Shown piece by piece: positions 14,277 through 58,066 of a stretch of 64,000 bases of DNA (position 1 is its first letter; each line of letters begins with the position of its first letter). The stretch is from an uncultured Desulfovibrionaceae bacterium. Its GTDB lineage: Bacteria; Desulfobacterota; Desulfovibrionia; Desulfovibrionales; Desulfovibrionaceae. Where the stretch lies: contig CASGAP010000001.1 of assembly GCA_949299515.1 (NCBI GenBank), positions 124,001 through 188,000 of the forward strand, read 5' to 3'. A program made the position numbers and the translations under genes. The notes under the pieces were generated by a model. It was not told the origin of the DNA and made no database searches. It saw only the letters and a list, made by a program, of their open reading frames with translations.

Positions 14277-14804
14277 CTAATAGCAGGGGCGGTGCATTCT
14301 GCCTTGGCGGTGATGTCTGCCGAATCCGCCGTAATATTCAATGCCGAATTCTTTTTCAAGCTGTGCGCGGAAGCTGTCGCGTTCCGCGTCGAGTTTATTT
14401 TCAAGGGCAGTGATGTCCTGTACGAGTTTGGTCAGTGTTTCGGGCTGTACGTTGGGATTGTATTTGAGAGTGTCCAGTTCAATGCGTTTTTCGCGCAGGC
14501 TGTCCCAAAGCGGTTCCATGGTTTTGAAATGGTTTTTGCGCAGTTCGCCGATTTGTTCGATTTGTTTGTCGGAAAGTTCTTTGTCCTGTTTGTTGTAGTA
14601 GCCGTAGCAGCCGCGTCCCGTGCCGTCATTGTAGGGGCAGTCCGCAAAGCGGTGATAGCCGTGTCCGTATCCGCAGCCGCCGTCTGCGGCATAGCCGTGT
14701 CCGTATCCCATGCCGCGGTGTCCGTTATATGCCTGAGCCATGCTTACGCCGCCCGCAAAAACTGCCAAAATTGCCAATGAACCGATAATTGTACGTTTAT
14801 TCAT
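14277..14804 (-). CDS. ZraP/Spy-like periplasmic metal-associated protein, copy A
   Basis: 175 residues. A signal peptide ends at about residue 25 (GGVSMAQA). The next 45 residues are rich in Gly, His, Tyr and Cys (HRGMGYGHGY, GGCGYGHGYH, RGCYGYY) and could bind metal. A helical domain follows with the LTxxQ-like SDKQIEQIGELR and LDTLKYNPNVQPETLTKLV, as in the ZraP/Spy/CpxP family. Such proteins are periplasmic chaperones or zinc-buffering partners of envelope stress systems. AAAAGGGGAACTATC precedes the ATG. It is nearly identical to the gene at 15276 except for an extra His/Gly segment of 12 residues near residue 38. Confidence 0.85.
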   Translation of the reverse strand: MNKRTIIGSLAILAVFAGGVSMAQAYNGHRGMGYGHGYAADGGCGYGHGYHRFADCPYNDGTGRGCYGYYNKQDKELSDKQIEQIGELRKNHFKTMEPLWDSLREKRIELDTLKYNPNVQPETLTKLVQDITALENKLDAERDSFRAQLEKEFGIEYYGGFGRHHRQGRMHRPCY

Positions 14805-15767: not shown

Positions 15768-16091
15768 ACTATGCTCCTTGTATCTGTAAGGAAGTTTTAT
15801 TTGTTGTATGTCTTACATAAAGCAAGGAACGTGCCAAAACTTTATCATGTTGAATTAAAAGTATTTTTGTTTTATTGCCTGCTGTACGATATATAAATGT
15901 TGTGAAAAAGTGTTACCTTTGTATTCAATTTGTAACTTTTTTACTCATGTGCCCTAGGGTGTGCAGTTTGGCTTGCAGGCAGACAGTATCAAGGCAAACA
16001 GAAAAATTGGCGTGCTTTGCTGGAGTTTGTTTCGGCGGATTTGGAAAAAATGTATCAGATGTGTAAAATAGTAACAGATAGGGCAGAACAT
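15768..16091. other. Gap between ZraP-like copy B and the hppA terminator
   Basis: AT-rich sequence with no convincing gene. It must hold the promoter for copy B on the minus strand. A weak inverted repeat GTTAC/GTAAC surrounds 15914-15938. The short plus-strand ORF here has no ribosome site and no recognisable protein. Confidence 0.5.
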
Positions 16092-27422: not shown

Positions 27423-28904
27423 CTATCTTTTTTTCTTTTTCTTTTTATCTTTATCGCGTTTTTTCTTGGTGGCGGAACTGCCGCGCGTGCTGGGCATACC
27501 GGGAAGTCCTCCCATGCCGCCGAAACCGCCGAAGCCGCCGAGTCCGGGCATACCGCCCATGCCGCCGAGCTGGTTCATGTTGGGCATGGGGGGCATTTTT
27601 CCTTTGCCGCCCTTCATAATGCCGGACATCATTTTGCGCATTTGTTCAAATTGGCGCAGAAGCTGGTTGACGTCCTGGACTTTTGTGCCTGAACCGTTGG
27701 CAATGCGGATTTTGCGCGATGGGTTGATAATATCGGGGTTGCGGCGTTCTTTCATGGTCATGGAATTGATAATGGCTTCGGTTTTGGCTATTTCTTTTTC
27801 ATGGCCTTTCATTTCGCCGAGCTGTTTTGCAATGCCGCCGAGACCCGGAATCAGTTTTAAAATTGATTCAAAGGAGCCCATGGAACGCATACGTTTCATC
27901 TGCGTGCGGAAATCCTCAAGGTCGAATTTGGCTTTCTGCATTTTTTTTGCCAGGGCTTCGGCTTCTTCCTGTTCCATGGTGCTCTGCGCTTTTTCCAGAA
28001 GGGTAAGCACGTCGCCCATGCCGAGTATGCGTCCCGCAACGCGTTCCGGGTGGAAGACTTCCATTTCCGAAAGTTTTTCGCCCATACCGACAAATTTTAC
28101 GGGAGCGCCGGTTACGGATTTAATGGAAAGAGCCGCGCCGCCTCTGGCGTCGCCGTCCATTTTGGTAAGCACGACGCCGGTAATGCCTATCTGCTGGTTG
28201 AACGCGTCTGCAACGGTAACTGCGTCCTGACCTGTCATGGCGTCCGCCACAAAAAGGGTTTCCTGCGGTTTTGCCGCTTCTTTTATCGCCTTAAGTTCCT
28301 GCATGAGGGCGTCGTCCACATGAAGGCGGCCCGCAGTGTCAAGAATGACAACGGTGCACTGTTTTTCTTTGGCGTCCTGAAGGGCGTTTTTGACGATATC
28401 CACGGGTTTCATGTCAGCCTTGGAATCGTAGCAGGGAATGTCGAGCTGTTTTGCCAGGGTGCGCAGCTGCTCAATAGCCGCAGGACGGTATACGTCAGCC
28501 GGAACAAGGTAGGGCTTCATTTTTTGTTTGCGAAGCAAAAGGGCCAACTTACCCGAGGATGTGGTTTTACCAGAACCTTGTAAGCCTGCCATAAGGATAA
28601 CGGCAGGTTGCTGCCCTTGCAGTTTTAGTTCCGTGCTTTCACCGCCAAGCAGGTGCACAAGCTCGTCATTAACAACTTTAATAACCTGCTGAGCCGGGCT
28701 TACCCCTTTCATTACCAGCGTGCCGAGTGCTTTTTCCTTTACCGTGTCGGTAAATTCTTTGACAACTTTAAAGTTTACGTCGGCTTCAAGAAGAGCAAGG
28801 CGCACCTCGCGCATGGCTTCCTGAATGTTTTCTTCCGTAAGCTGCACTCTTCCGCCAAGTGTGCGGAATACTCCGGAAAGTCGGTCGGTCAAGCTTTCAA
28901 ACAT
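27423..28904 (-). CDS. ffh: Signal recognition particle protein Ffh
   Basis: 493 residues. N domain 1-90, GTPase domain with GLQGSGKTTSSGKLA at about 107, DTAGRLHVD near 187 and TKMDGDARGGAALS near 247, then the methionine-rich M domain that binds 4.5S RNA and signal peptides. The last 70 residues are unusual in richness: repeated Gly-Met-Pro segments ending in a run of Lys. Ffh directs inner membrane proteins to the translocon with FtsY. AGGATATACC precedes ATG. Co-transcribed with rpsP. Confidence 0.97.
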   Translation of the reverse strand: MFESLTDRLSGVFRTLGGRVQLTEENIQEAMREVRLALLEADVNFKVVKEFTDTVKEKALGTLVMKGVSPAQQVIKVVNDELVHLLGGESTELKLQGQQPAVILMAGLQGSGKTTSSGKLALLLRKQKMKPYLVPADVYRPAAIEQLRTLAKQLDIPCYDSKADMKPVDIVKNALQDAKEKQCTVVILDTAGRLHVDDALMQELKAIKEAAKPQETLFVADAMTGQDAVTVADAFNQQIGITGVVLTKMDGDARGGAALSIKSVTGAPVKFVGMGEKLSEMEVFHPERVAGRILGMGDVLTLLEKAQSTMEQEEAEALAKKMQKAKFDLEDFRTQMKRMRSMGSFESILKLIPGLGGIAKQLGEMKGHEKEIAKTEAIINSMTMKERRNPDIINPSRKIRIANGSGTKVQDVNQLLRQFEQMRKMMSGIMKGGKGKMPPMPNMNQLGGMGGMPGLGGFGGFGGMGGLPGMPSTRGSSATKKKRDKDKKKKKKR

Positions 28905-29130
28905 GGTATATCCTATTGTTAATGCCCTTATGAATAGTAGCTAATTAGCGTTACTTGAAAAAGTGCGTTACGTCAAGAAAAAATAAAGTGTTTAAAAATA
29001 TTTAACTTTTTTTTGTCATATTAAAAATCTGTATAAAATTTAGACAAGAGCAGTTTCTTTTTGTGCAAAAATTAGACATTTTTTATGGTGTATAAAATTA
29101 AAAATAAAATAATTCAATATGTTAATAGTT
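28905..29130. other. AT-rich gap upstream of ffh
   Basis: No gene. On the minus strand it holds the ffh promoter region; on the plus strand it leads to the sigma-54 element at 29131. Confidence 0.5.
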
Positions 29131-29145
29131 TGGCACAGTGTTTGC
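29131..29145 (+). promoter_or_regulatory. Sigma-54 (RpoN) promoter of a candidate small RNA
   Basis: TGGCACAGTGTTTGC matches the consensus TGGCAC-N5-TTGC, with GG and GC exactly 12 bases apart. Predicted transcription start is near 29157. Confidence 0.65.
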
Positions 29146-29156
29146 TGTTATGTTGG

Positions 29157-29250
29157 TACCTCTCTAAAATGAAGCATTACTTACCAAACAGGTAAAGTAC
29201 TCCTTCCTATCTCCCCTTATAAGCCGCCTTCCCCTGGGCGGCTTTTTTTG
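29157..29250 (+). ncRNA. Candidate sigma-54-dependent small RNA
   Basis: About 94 nucleotides between a consensus RpoN promoter and a strong intrinsic terminator, with no ORF that has a ribosome site. A hairpin TACTTACC/GGTAAAGTA occupies 29179-29199. It is followed by an unpaired CU-rich stretch (CTCCTTCCTATCTCCCC, 29200-29216) that is complementary to Shine-Dalgarno sequences. That arrangement is typical of trans-acting small RNAs. The alternative is an attenuated leader of the YchJ-like gene at 29330. Expression is unproven. Confidence 0.5.
29222..29249 (+). terminator. Intrinsic terminator of the candidate small RNA
   Basis: AGCCGCC at 29222-29228 pairs with GGCGGCT at 29237-29243, followed by seven T residues. 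Confidence 0.9.
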
Positions 29251-29329
29251 TCTGTTGTTTTTTGAATAAAAAAACTTGTCAATTGGAAAAAGAAAGTGCA
29301 ATATACAGAAAATTTTTTGGAGGAACGCT

Positions 29330-29824
29330 ATGAGTCTTTGCCCCTGCGGTTCACAATTGGAAGATAAAGACTGCTGTCTGCCTATTTTGGAAGGCGCAAA
29401 AAAAGCTCCTACTGCGGAAGCTTTGATGCGTGCCAGATATACTGCCCATGTGCTGAAAAAATATGATTTTCTCGTGGAAAGCGCCCATCCCGAATTCCGC
29501 GATGACGTTAATCCTTCCGAAATTGAAGAATGGTCTTCTTTAATGGACTGGAAGTCTTTGGAAGTGCTCGGCACCAAAGACGGTCTTGAAAACGACGAAA
29601 CCGGGGAAGTAAGTTTCTGCGCGCATTATACCGTGCGTGATTTTCCGCAGGAACTGCGCGAAGATGCCTTTTTCCGCAAAGAAGGCGATACCTGGTATTA
29701 TGTGGACGGCACGGTTTTCGGAAAAGAACCCGTGCGCCGCGAAAGCCCGAAAATCGGCAGAAACGATCCCTGCCCCTGCGGAAGCGGAAAAAAATATAAA
29801 AAATGCTGCGGAAAGCAGGCATAA
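29330..29824 (+). CDS. YchJ-family protein with two SEC-C zinc motifs
   Basis: 164 residues. [16 protein letters not shown] at the N terminus and [17 protein letters not shown] at the C terminus are SEC-C motifs, each with three or four zinc-binding cysteines. The middle 100 residues match the NTF2-like YchJ domain ([20 protein letters not shown]). The C-terminal motif is like that of SecA, which binds SecB and ribosomes. The function of YchJ is not established. GGAGGAACGCT precedes ATG 29330, so the upstream extension to 29276 is not coding. It is monocistronic with its own terminator. Confidence 0.87.
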
Positions 29825-32668: not shown

Positions 32669-33154
32669 ATGAAAAAAGTTCTTGGTGTATTTGTTCTGTC
32701 TGTTTCCCTGGCTGCCTGCAGTTCTGCAAAAGAAGAAATTGCCCCTGTCAGTCAGGAATGTGAAACTGCCCCTGTTATTGTTGCGAAGAAAGAAACTAAA
32801 GATTTGACTGCGCAGGAAAAAACAGTGTACGACCAGCTGGCTTCCTTTGCCCATGCGCACATTAAAAAAAGCAATTCCAATATTATTCCCAATAAGCGTG
32901 CTCCGAAAGTCGAAAAGAAAAATAATATGTATGTGGCAAGCTACGTGGAATTTGATGCCGAAAGTCTCAGCATGGAACTTATTCCCACTCCCCACAGACA
33001 ATATAAATATTTGGCAAAAATTAAATACCGCGAACGGTTGTATCAATGCAAAGCCGAAACCAGGCAGCTGGCTTTGCAGGGAAATTTCAATGAGGTGGGC
33101 AGCCGTTTTATTACGGAAGTACCCCGCTATAAACAAGGTAAATGGTGCTATTAA
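32669..33154 (+). CDS. Unknown lipoprotein
   Basis: 161 residues. MKKVLGVFVLSVSLAACSSA is a lipoprotein signal with lipobox SLAAC. The mature part has a helical stretch (LTAQEKTVYDQLASFAHAHI) and a beta-rich C-terminal half, with three more cysteines (QECET, LYQCKAE, KWCY). I recognise no family. GGAGAG lies upstream of ATG. A terminator follows immediately. Confidence 0.78.
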   Translation: MKKVLGVFVLSVSLAACSSAKEEIAPVSQECETAPVIVAKKETKDLTAQEKTVYDQLASFAHAHIKKSNSNIIPNKRAPKVEKKNNMYVASYVEFDAESLSMELIPTPHRQYKYLAKIKYRERLYQCKAETRQLALQGNFNEVGSRFITEVPRYKQGKWCY

Positions 33155-36178: not shown

Positions 36179-36193
36179 TGGCACGCTCTTTGC
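36179..36193 (+). promoter_or_regulatory. Sigma-54 promoter of the flgFGAH operon
   Basis: TGGCACGCTCTTTGC fits TGGCAC-N5-TTGC with the correct 12-base spacing of GG and GC. It lies 75 bases before the flgF start. Confidence 0.8.
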
Positions 36194-57821: not shown

Positions 57822-57861
57822 GATAAACTCCTTGTTCAGAAACCGTGAACGAAATTGAGTA

Positions 57862-58010
57862 CACATACAGGCTGGTTTTCCGGCTCAAGGATCATTCCGC
57901 TTTATGCCTTCCCGTTTGCACAGTGGCTTGTTATAAAGCGGTCCCCTTTCACGGCTACGGTCTAGCGTTGTTAACTTCCCATTTACCTGCAAAAGCAGAA
58001 CCTGCAAGAT
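57862..58010 (-). promoter_or_regulatory. Cobalamin (B12) riboswitch
   Basis: On the minus strand the B12 box core GCCACTG (57921-57927) is followed by GGGAAGGC (57906-57913), then GAGCCGGAAAACCAGCC and the closing CCTGTATG. The 5' side has CTTGCAGG (58001-58008), which pairs with the 3' end. Position 41 bases before cbiK indicates repression of cbiK and probably the permease when B12 is plentiful. Confidence 0.9.
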
Positions 58011-58066
58011 AGGATAATTGTATCGGGTTTTGTTTTCTTGTCAAGGAGATGAGTTGAGATTTTGGC

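Follow-up and report, generated by a model that had tools for sequence, protein, structure and literature searches.

Sigma-54-dependent noncoding RNAs are already known as a kind. In Vibrio, several Qrr RNAs are activated by the same enhancer protein, LuxO, via sigma-54; they depend on Hfq and use an open seed to pair with ribosome-binding sites. NrsZ, CrcZ and CrcY of Pseudomonas and Azotobacter are sigma-54 RNAs under NtrC or CbrB and are linked to nitrogen or carbon status, with CrcZ titrating Hfq-Crc. RepG of Helicobacter pylori, a bacterium without Hfq, acts through a C/U-rich open sequence located in its terminator loop; we know of no sigma-54 dependence of RepG. The Desulfovibrionaceae, a family with hydrogen-sulfide producers of the gut among its members, have to our knowledge yielded few regulatory RNAs so far. 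In Desulfovibrio vulgaris, four sigma-54-dependent ncRNAs have been described (PMC4641369), which are targets of DVU0653, DVU0679 (Dv_sRNA2), DVU1419 and DVU2359 (PMC4641369, PMC3333781), each being assigned to a different regulator (PMC4641369). Expression of Dv_sRNA2 has been reported (PMC3333781), and this species frequently has TGT/ACA half-sites separated by 9, 11 or 12 bp (PMC4641369, PMC3333781).

Here we describe two new candidates outside Rfam, RNA1 and RNA2, in a gut sulfidogen related to Taurinivorans/Mailhella. RNA1 lies within the 64,000-nucleotide stretch of DNA that was analysed (the window). Compared by description rather than by sequence, both resemble the D. vulgaris ncRNAs, which come from the same bacterial order and have their own sigma-54 promoter and enhancer-protein site; unlike these, RNA1 and RNA2 have one enhancer motif in common, and no further genus of the family was found to have them. 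The sharing of a sigma-54 enhancer motif by more than one small RNA, together with a predicted seed directed to ribosome sites, recalls the Qrr RNAs, from which RNA1 differs in having no sequence similarity (no Rfam match) and in the failure to find Hfq here. RNA1 shares a predicted sigma-54 dependence with NrsZ, CrcZ and CrcY, although it has no Rfam match to such families, Hfq was again not found, and we only infer its link to nitrogen. Like RepG, RNA1 has a C/U-rich open sequence in a genome where Hfq was not found; unlike that of RepG, its terminator loop, UUCCCC, is not biased toward ribosome sites. RNA1 and RNA2, neither of them listed so far and both with the same enhancer motif, would form a compact, testable sigma-54 circuit.

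A predicted sigma-54 promoter and a terminator delimit RNA1

The original prediction read this locus as a sigma-54-dependent small RNA, on the grounds of a consensus RpoN site followed after about 90 bases by a strong terminator, with no ORF bearing a ribosome site in between. All three elements were recovered. The sequence TGGCACAGTGTTTGC, at exactly 29131-29145 on the plus strand, is a perfect -24/-12 site (TGGCAC-N5-TTGC) with its GG and GC ten bases apart; the match is exact in genome G000, and the GG/GC spacing is kept in all five genomes that carry RNA1, where other letters vary. Based on promoter spacing, the 5' end of RNA1 is predicted to be the T of TACCTCTCT, 12 bases past the site. 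The 3' end of the resulting ncRNA of about 90 nt (29157-29250, plus strand) is set by an intrinsic terminator at 29221-29250, in which a nine-pair stem (29221-29244) is followed by a T run. Only small frames of 6-8 codons occur between promoter and terminator. The locus is flanked by the divergent gene ffh for the signal recognition particle GTPase (27423-28904, minus strand; Pfam SRP54) and by ychJ (29330-29824, plus strand; Pfam YchJ middle domain and SEC-C), the next downstream gene, which lies outside RNA1.

Taken alone, the sigma-54 motif could be explained by chance: the window contains 8 matches when one mismatch is allowed, where 7.2 are expected, and the genome has 10 exact sites, compared with 4 when the pattern is reversed. 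The site is lifted above chance by its conservation among related species and by the palindromes upstream of it (see below). The motif alone is thus insufficient, and the case for RNA1 rests on sequence conservation.

RNA1 is conserved within one genus

When 59 related genomes were searched, the RNA1 region was recovered from five of the six that belong to the genus. Since two of these, G003 and G005, are nearly identical at this region, the five represent four independent lineages. Between species, RNA1 is 88-99% identical, compared with 27-56% at four-fold sites of ychJ and 36-65% in the 124 bases preceding the promoter in the same species pairs. The conserved block begins exactly at the predicted +1 and is almost invariant up to the terminator, and in all five genomes its first base lies at an identical distance from TTGC. 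Moreover, three genomes have A-U in place of a G-C pair of the terminator stem, a two-sided change that keeps the pairing. The interval from the RNA1 terminator to ychJ contains a second conserved block (AAAAAACTTGTCAAT...AGAAAGTGCAATATACA...GGAGGA) at 29276-29330. This block is a possible location of the ychJ promoter; scored as a sigma-70 site, it gave no clear match.

A covariance search had been expected to reveal relatives across the Desulfovibrionaceae. Among 247 genomes of the family from 44 genera, however, the covariance model R1 detected RNA1 in no other genus, so the comparison rests on the four independent lineages. Matches of R1 outside the genus were look-alike terminators that shared the GC-rich stem and had neither the promoter nor the 5' motif. 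The same range was obtained when 348 genomes of the order were searched by pattern, allowing up to 3 mismatches, and when GTDB contigs were scanned for exact matches; those additional pattern matches that could be read in context, one of them in Clostridium paraputrificum, lacked both promoter and terminator. RNA1 is single-copy, with no second copy detected in the same genome. Against Rfam, Qrr included, RNA1 had no match, its best score being 24.2 bits for rli32 against a gathering score of 100; the weak scores for rli32 and the Phe leader were far under the cut-off. RNA2 likewise matched no Rfam family, and no mention of either RNA was found in the literature searched.

The named matches to RNA1 were a Mailhella MAG, an uncultured Mailhella and Desulfovibrio sp. 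UBA8003. UBA8003 has been assigned to Taurinivorans muris (PMC10507020), and the cultivated strain T. muris LT0009 appears to carry both RNA1 and RNA2. As transcriptomes of LT0009 have been published (PMC10507020), existing data could decide whether the two RNAs are transcribed.

RNA1 has C/U-rich stretches predicted to be open and to pair with ribosome-binding sites

The predicted fold of RNA1 has an energy of -25.2 kcal/mol, compared with -12.7 kcal/mol for shuffled sequences (z = -5.2). A small hairpin followed by an exposed CU-rich segment had been proposed. The hairpin was confirmed in the predicted structure (hairpin 1, GAAG / UACUUACC-AAACA-GGUAAAGUA / CUUC, 29171-29206), where it is stable and shows hardly any covariation. 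The CU-rich segment CUCCUUCCUAUCUCCCC (29200-29216), a candidate anti-Shine-Dalgarno seed, is not exposed over its full length: four bases (RNA positions 47-50) are taken up in closing the lower part of hairpin 1, and the remaining 13 bases are open, one of them partly. A further open C/U-rich stretch, absent from the original prediction, was found at the 5' end. This tail, UACCUCUCUAAAAU (29157-29170), is invariant in the five genomes, has an unpaired probability of at least 0.89 and is another candidate seed.

Pairing of these segments was scored with 45 translation starts from the window, which had been chosen for a Shine-Dalgarno-like sequence, and 100 mononucleotide shuffles served as the control. 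The CU-rich segment paired with a mean energy of -9.7 kcal/mol, better than all 100 shuffles, which lends statistical support to the earlier suggestion that it could pair with Shine-Dalgarno sequences. The 5' tail performed better than 98 of the 100 shuffles against the same starts. The C/U-rich terminator loop, also considered as a seed, was no better than shuffles. Because RNA1 has open C/U-rich stretches whose pairing goes beyond that of shuffles, an anti-Shine-Dalgarno mechanism is likely. No match to Hfq (PF17209) was found in the 91% complete assembly, in which the controls were found. The best duplex of the 5' tail in the window, at -13.8 kcal/mol, is with the ribosome site CGGAGAG of a lipoprotein-like gene at 32669-33154.

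Tandem palindromes and a candidate sibling RNA upstream of uvrA

Two palindromes of the form TGT-N11-ACA lie upstream of the RNA1 promoter on the plus strand: TGTATAAAATTTAGACA at 29030-29046 (-127 from +1) and TGTGCAAAAATTAGACA at 29062-29078 (-95 from +1). They are arranged in tandem 31-32 bp apart (32 bp here, three helical turns), and both are conserved in close relatives while the sequence between them is not. We predict that they are enhancer-type sites for the sigma-54 promoter.

When five genomes were searched with this motif, a palindrome of the RNA1 type, TGTATAATTTTTATACA (read with the gene), was found at a second locus, 134 bp before a perfect sigma-54 site, TGGCACGGGCTTTGC (G000 C1:32141). 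As the motif had been defined from RNA1, its presence here is an independent event. The motif has about four further matches in 1.76 Mb, and there are nine additional exact sigma-54 sites; from these numbers we estimate the chance of such a coincidence of palindrome and sigma-54 site at roughly 0.4%. As at RNA1, a second half-site (TGTATAAAAGG or TGTGCAAAG, of the TGTATA/TGTGCA type) is found 32 bases beyond the palindrome. TGGCACGGGCTTTGC precedes a stretch of about 155 bases in which no ORF is conserved; this is followed by a terminator and then by uvrA, a gene named from its sequence rather than by family search. This conserved, unannotated sigma-54-type RNA, RNA2 (L049 1527-1680, corresponding to G000 C1:32167-32320), lies outside the window. 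Three pairs of its 5' hairpin are changed on both sides, and it contains CUCCUU words outside the predicted stems.

With model R2, RNA2 was detected in exactly the five genomes that carry RNA1, and was absent from G002 and from all others of the 247 genomes. At the level of sequence, the promoter with its spacing, the conservation, the terminator, the palindromes, RNA2 and its co-occurrence with RNA1 are all established. Since RNA2 has the enhancer and promoter type of RNA1 as well as open CUCCUU, the two probably form one small regulon of sigma-54 RNAs.

In G004, the enhancer palindromes are degenerate at both RNAs. A third copy of the palindrome, TGTATAAAAATTATACA, occurs in the T. muris type genomes G003 and G005 (L060 1501-1517 and L069) between aroQ-like and engB-like genes, with no sigma-54 consensus. 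Another palindrome, TGTGAAAAATTTACACA, is located upstream of the operon of L084, which was considered as an activator with its own palindrome and set aside, no sigma-54 consensus being found there.

A NifA-like protein is a candidate activator

The genome encodes rpoN (PF04552 match), and eight enhancer-binding proteins (PF00158) are present in G000. Seven of these have reciprocal best matches in G002, a genome without RNA1 and RNA2. The eighth, a NifA-like GAF-AAA+-Fis protein (G000 C10:73051-74544), has no ortholog in G002 and is found in G001, G003 and G005 at 66-74% identity; in the fragmented assembly of G004 it was not found at E <= 1e-100, though both RNAs are present. Its best curated match is NifA, and its score of 456.5 bits against NCBIfam TIGR01817 is under the cut-off of 528.85, so that it is NifA-like rather than NifA. 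NifA sites have the form TGT-N10-ACA, and the palindrome of RNA1 and RNA2 is one base longer. The gene lies beside or near those for glutamate synthase and type III glutamine synthetase, and nitrogen status would therefore be the signal. We tentatively put this protein forward as the likeliest of the eight activators, with nitrogen status as the signal; the suggestion is a weak one and may well be wrong.

Type III glutamine synthetase was considered as a further gene under the shared enhancer. A sigma-54-like site, TTGCACGCTCTTTGC, is present upstream of it (L151, G000 C10), but the inverted repeat there is different and the RNA1-type palindrome is absent from this promoter. The long inverted repeat at L151, CCTACATTTTTGTA...TACAAAAATGTAGG, is a candidate site of another nitrogen regulator.

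Proposed mechanism and alternative explanations

RNA1 is probably a free-standing sigma-54 small RNA that acts in trans by Shine-Dalgarno pairing and has RNA2 as its sibling. It has its own promoter, its own terminator and no conserved ORF, as free-standing small RNAs do. The sigma-54-dependent reading of the original prediction is supported by promoter spacing, conservation from +1, the covarying terminator, the enhancer repeat, the presence of rpoN and the sibling RNA, and we infer transcription, sigma-54 dependence and action in trans. In the proposed mechanism, an enhancer-binding protein bound to the tandem TGT-N11-ACA sites (29030-29078) would activate sigma-54 RNA polymerase at its binding site, 29131-29145. 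The transcript of about 90 nt would end at the terminator and act in trans: pairing of the CU-rich segment and the open 5' tail (ACCUCUCU) with purine-rich Shine-Dalgarno sequences would lower translation of the target mRNAs. RNA2, under the same enhancer and promoter type, would belong to the same regulon.

The region might instead be a 5' leader of ychJ, with the terminator serving as an attenuator that sigma-54 transcription sometimes reads through. ychJ does follow on the same strand about 70-80 bp past the terminator in all five genomes, and the 5' tail tends to pair elsewhere in a read-through transcript. However, the terminator core keeps a pair probability of 0.94-1.0 even when the transcript is long, and no anti-terminator was seen to compete with it; identity falls to 60-77% past the terminator before the separate block ahead of ychJ; and RNA2, of the same design, precedes the unrelated uvrA. 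We consider a leader function unlikely. RNA1 could also be a small RNA that acts as a sponge for a protein rather than by pairing with mRNA, since invariant open stretches and hairpins would suit a protein ligand too; the failure to find Hfq is compatible with this. That RNA1 contains no GGA, the core of CsrA/RsmA sites, and that its open parts are biased to ribosome-site complementarity speak against such a role, which seems improbable to us.

Coding by the locus is scarcely credible. All five genomes have an ATG at position 13 of the RNA, which could start a short peptide gene (MKHYLPNR-like) under sigma-54 control, but the 12-nt leader UACCUCUCUAAA contains no ribosome site and the frame is 6 codons long in two genomes and 8 codons long in the other three; a leader peptide was rejected on the same ground, the frame not being conserved. 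Very improbable, too, is a chance sigma-54-like site next to an unrelated terminator, with the conservation due to a DNA element. The near-chance frequency of the motif would fit this, whereas the sharp conservation edges at +1 and terminator, the compensatory terminator change and a sibling RNA with the same enhancer would not.

Returning to the small-RNA reading, a more far-reaching scenario would make RNA1 and RNA2 a dedicated Hfq-independent anti-Shine-Dalgarno pair through which a repurposed NifA-like activator couples nitrogen status to the translation of many genes in a streamlined taurine-respiring gut bacterium. We offer this as speculation that is rather doubtful in its full extent.

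Other sigma-54 sites and regulatory elements

The other exact sigma-54 sites of G000 are mostly intragenic or before flagellar-type or ZraP-like genes, as judged from gene names given by inspection. Two further perfect sites lie in the window. One, at 36179-36193 on the plus strand, is upstream of genes of the flagellar basal-body rod type. The other, at 15822-15836 on the minus strand, precedes ZraP-like genes in tandem (MNKRTIIGSLAILAVFAGG...), one of which lies at 14280-14804, an arrangement expected of a ZraSR-type envelope or metal stress system; a ZraR-like activator (L085) is encoded in the genome. The window also contains a cobalamin riboswitch at 57853-58020 on the minus strand (72.6 bits).
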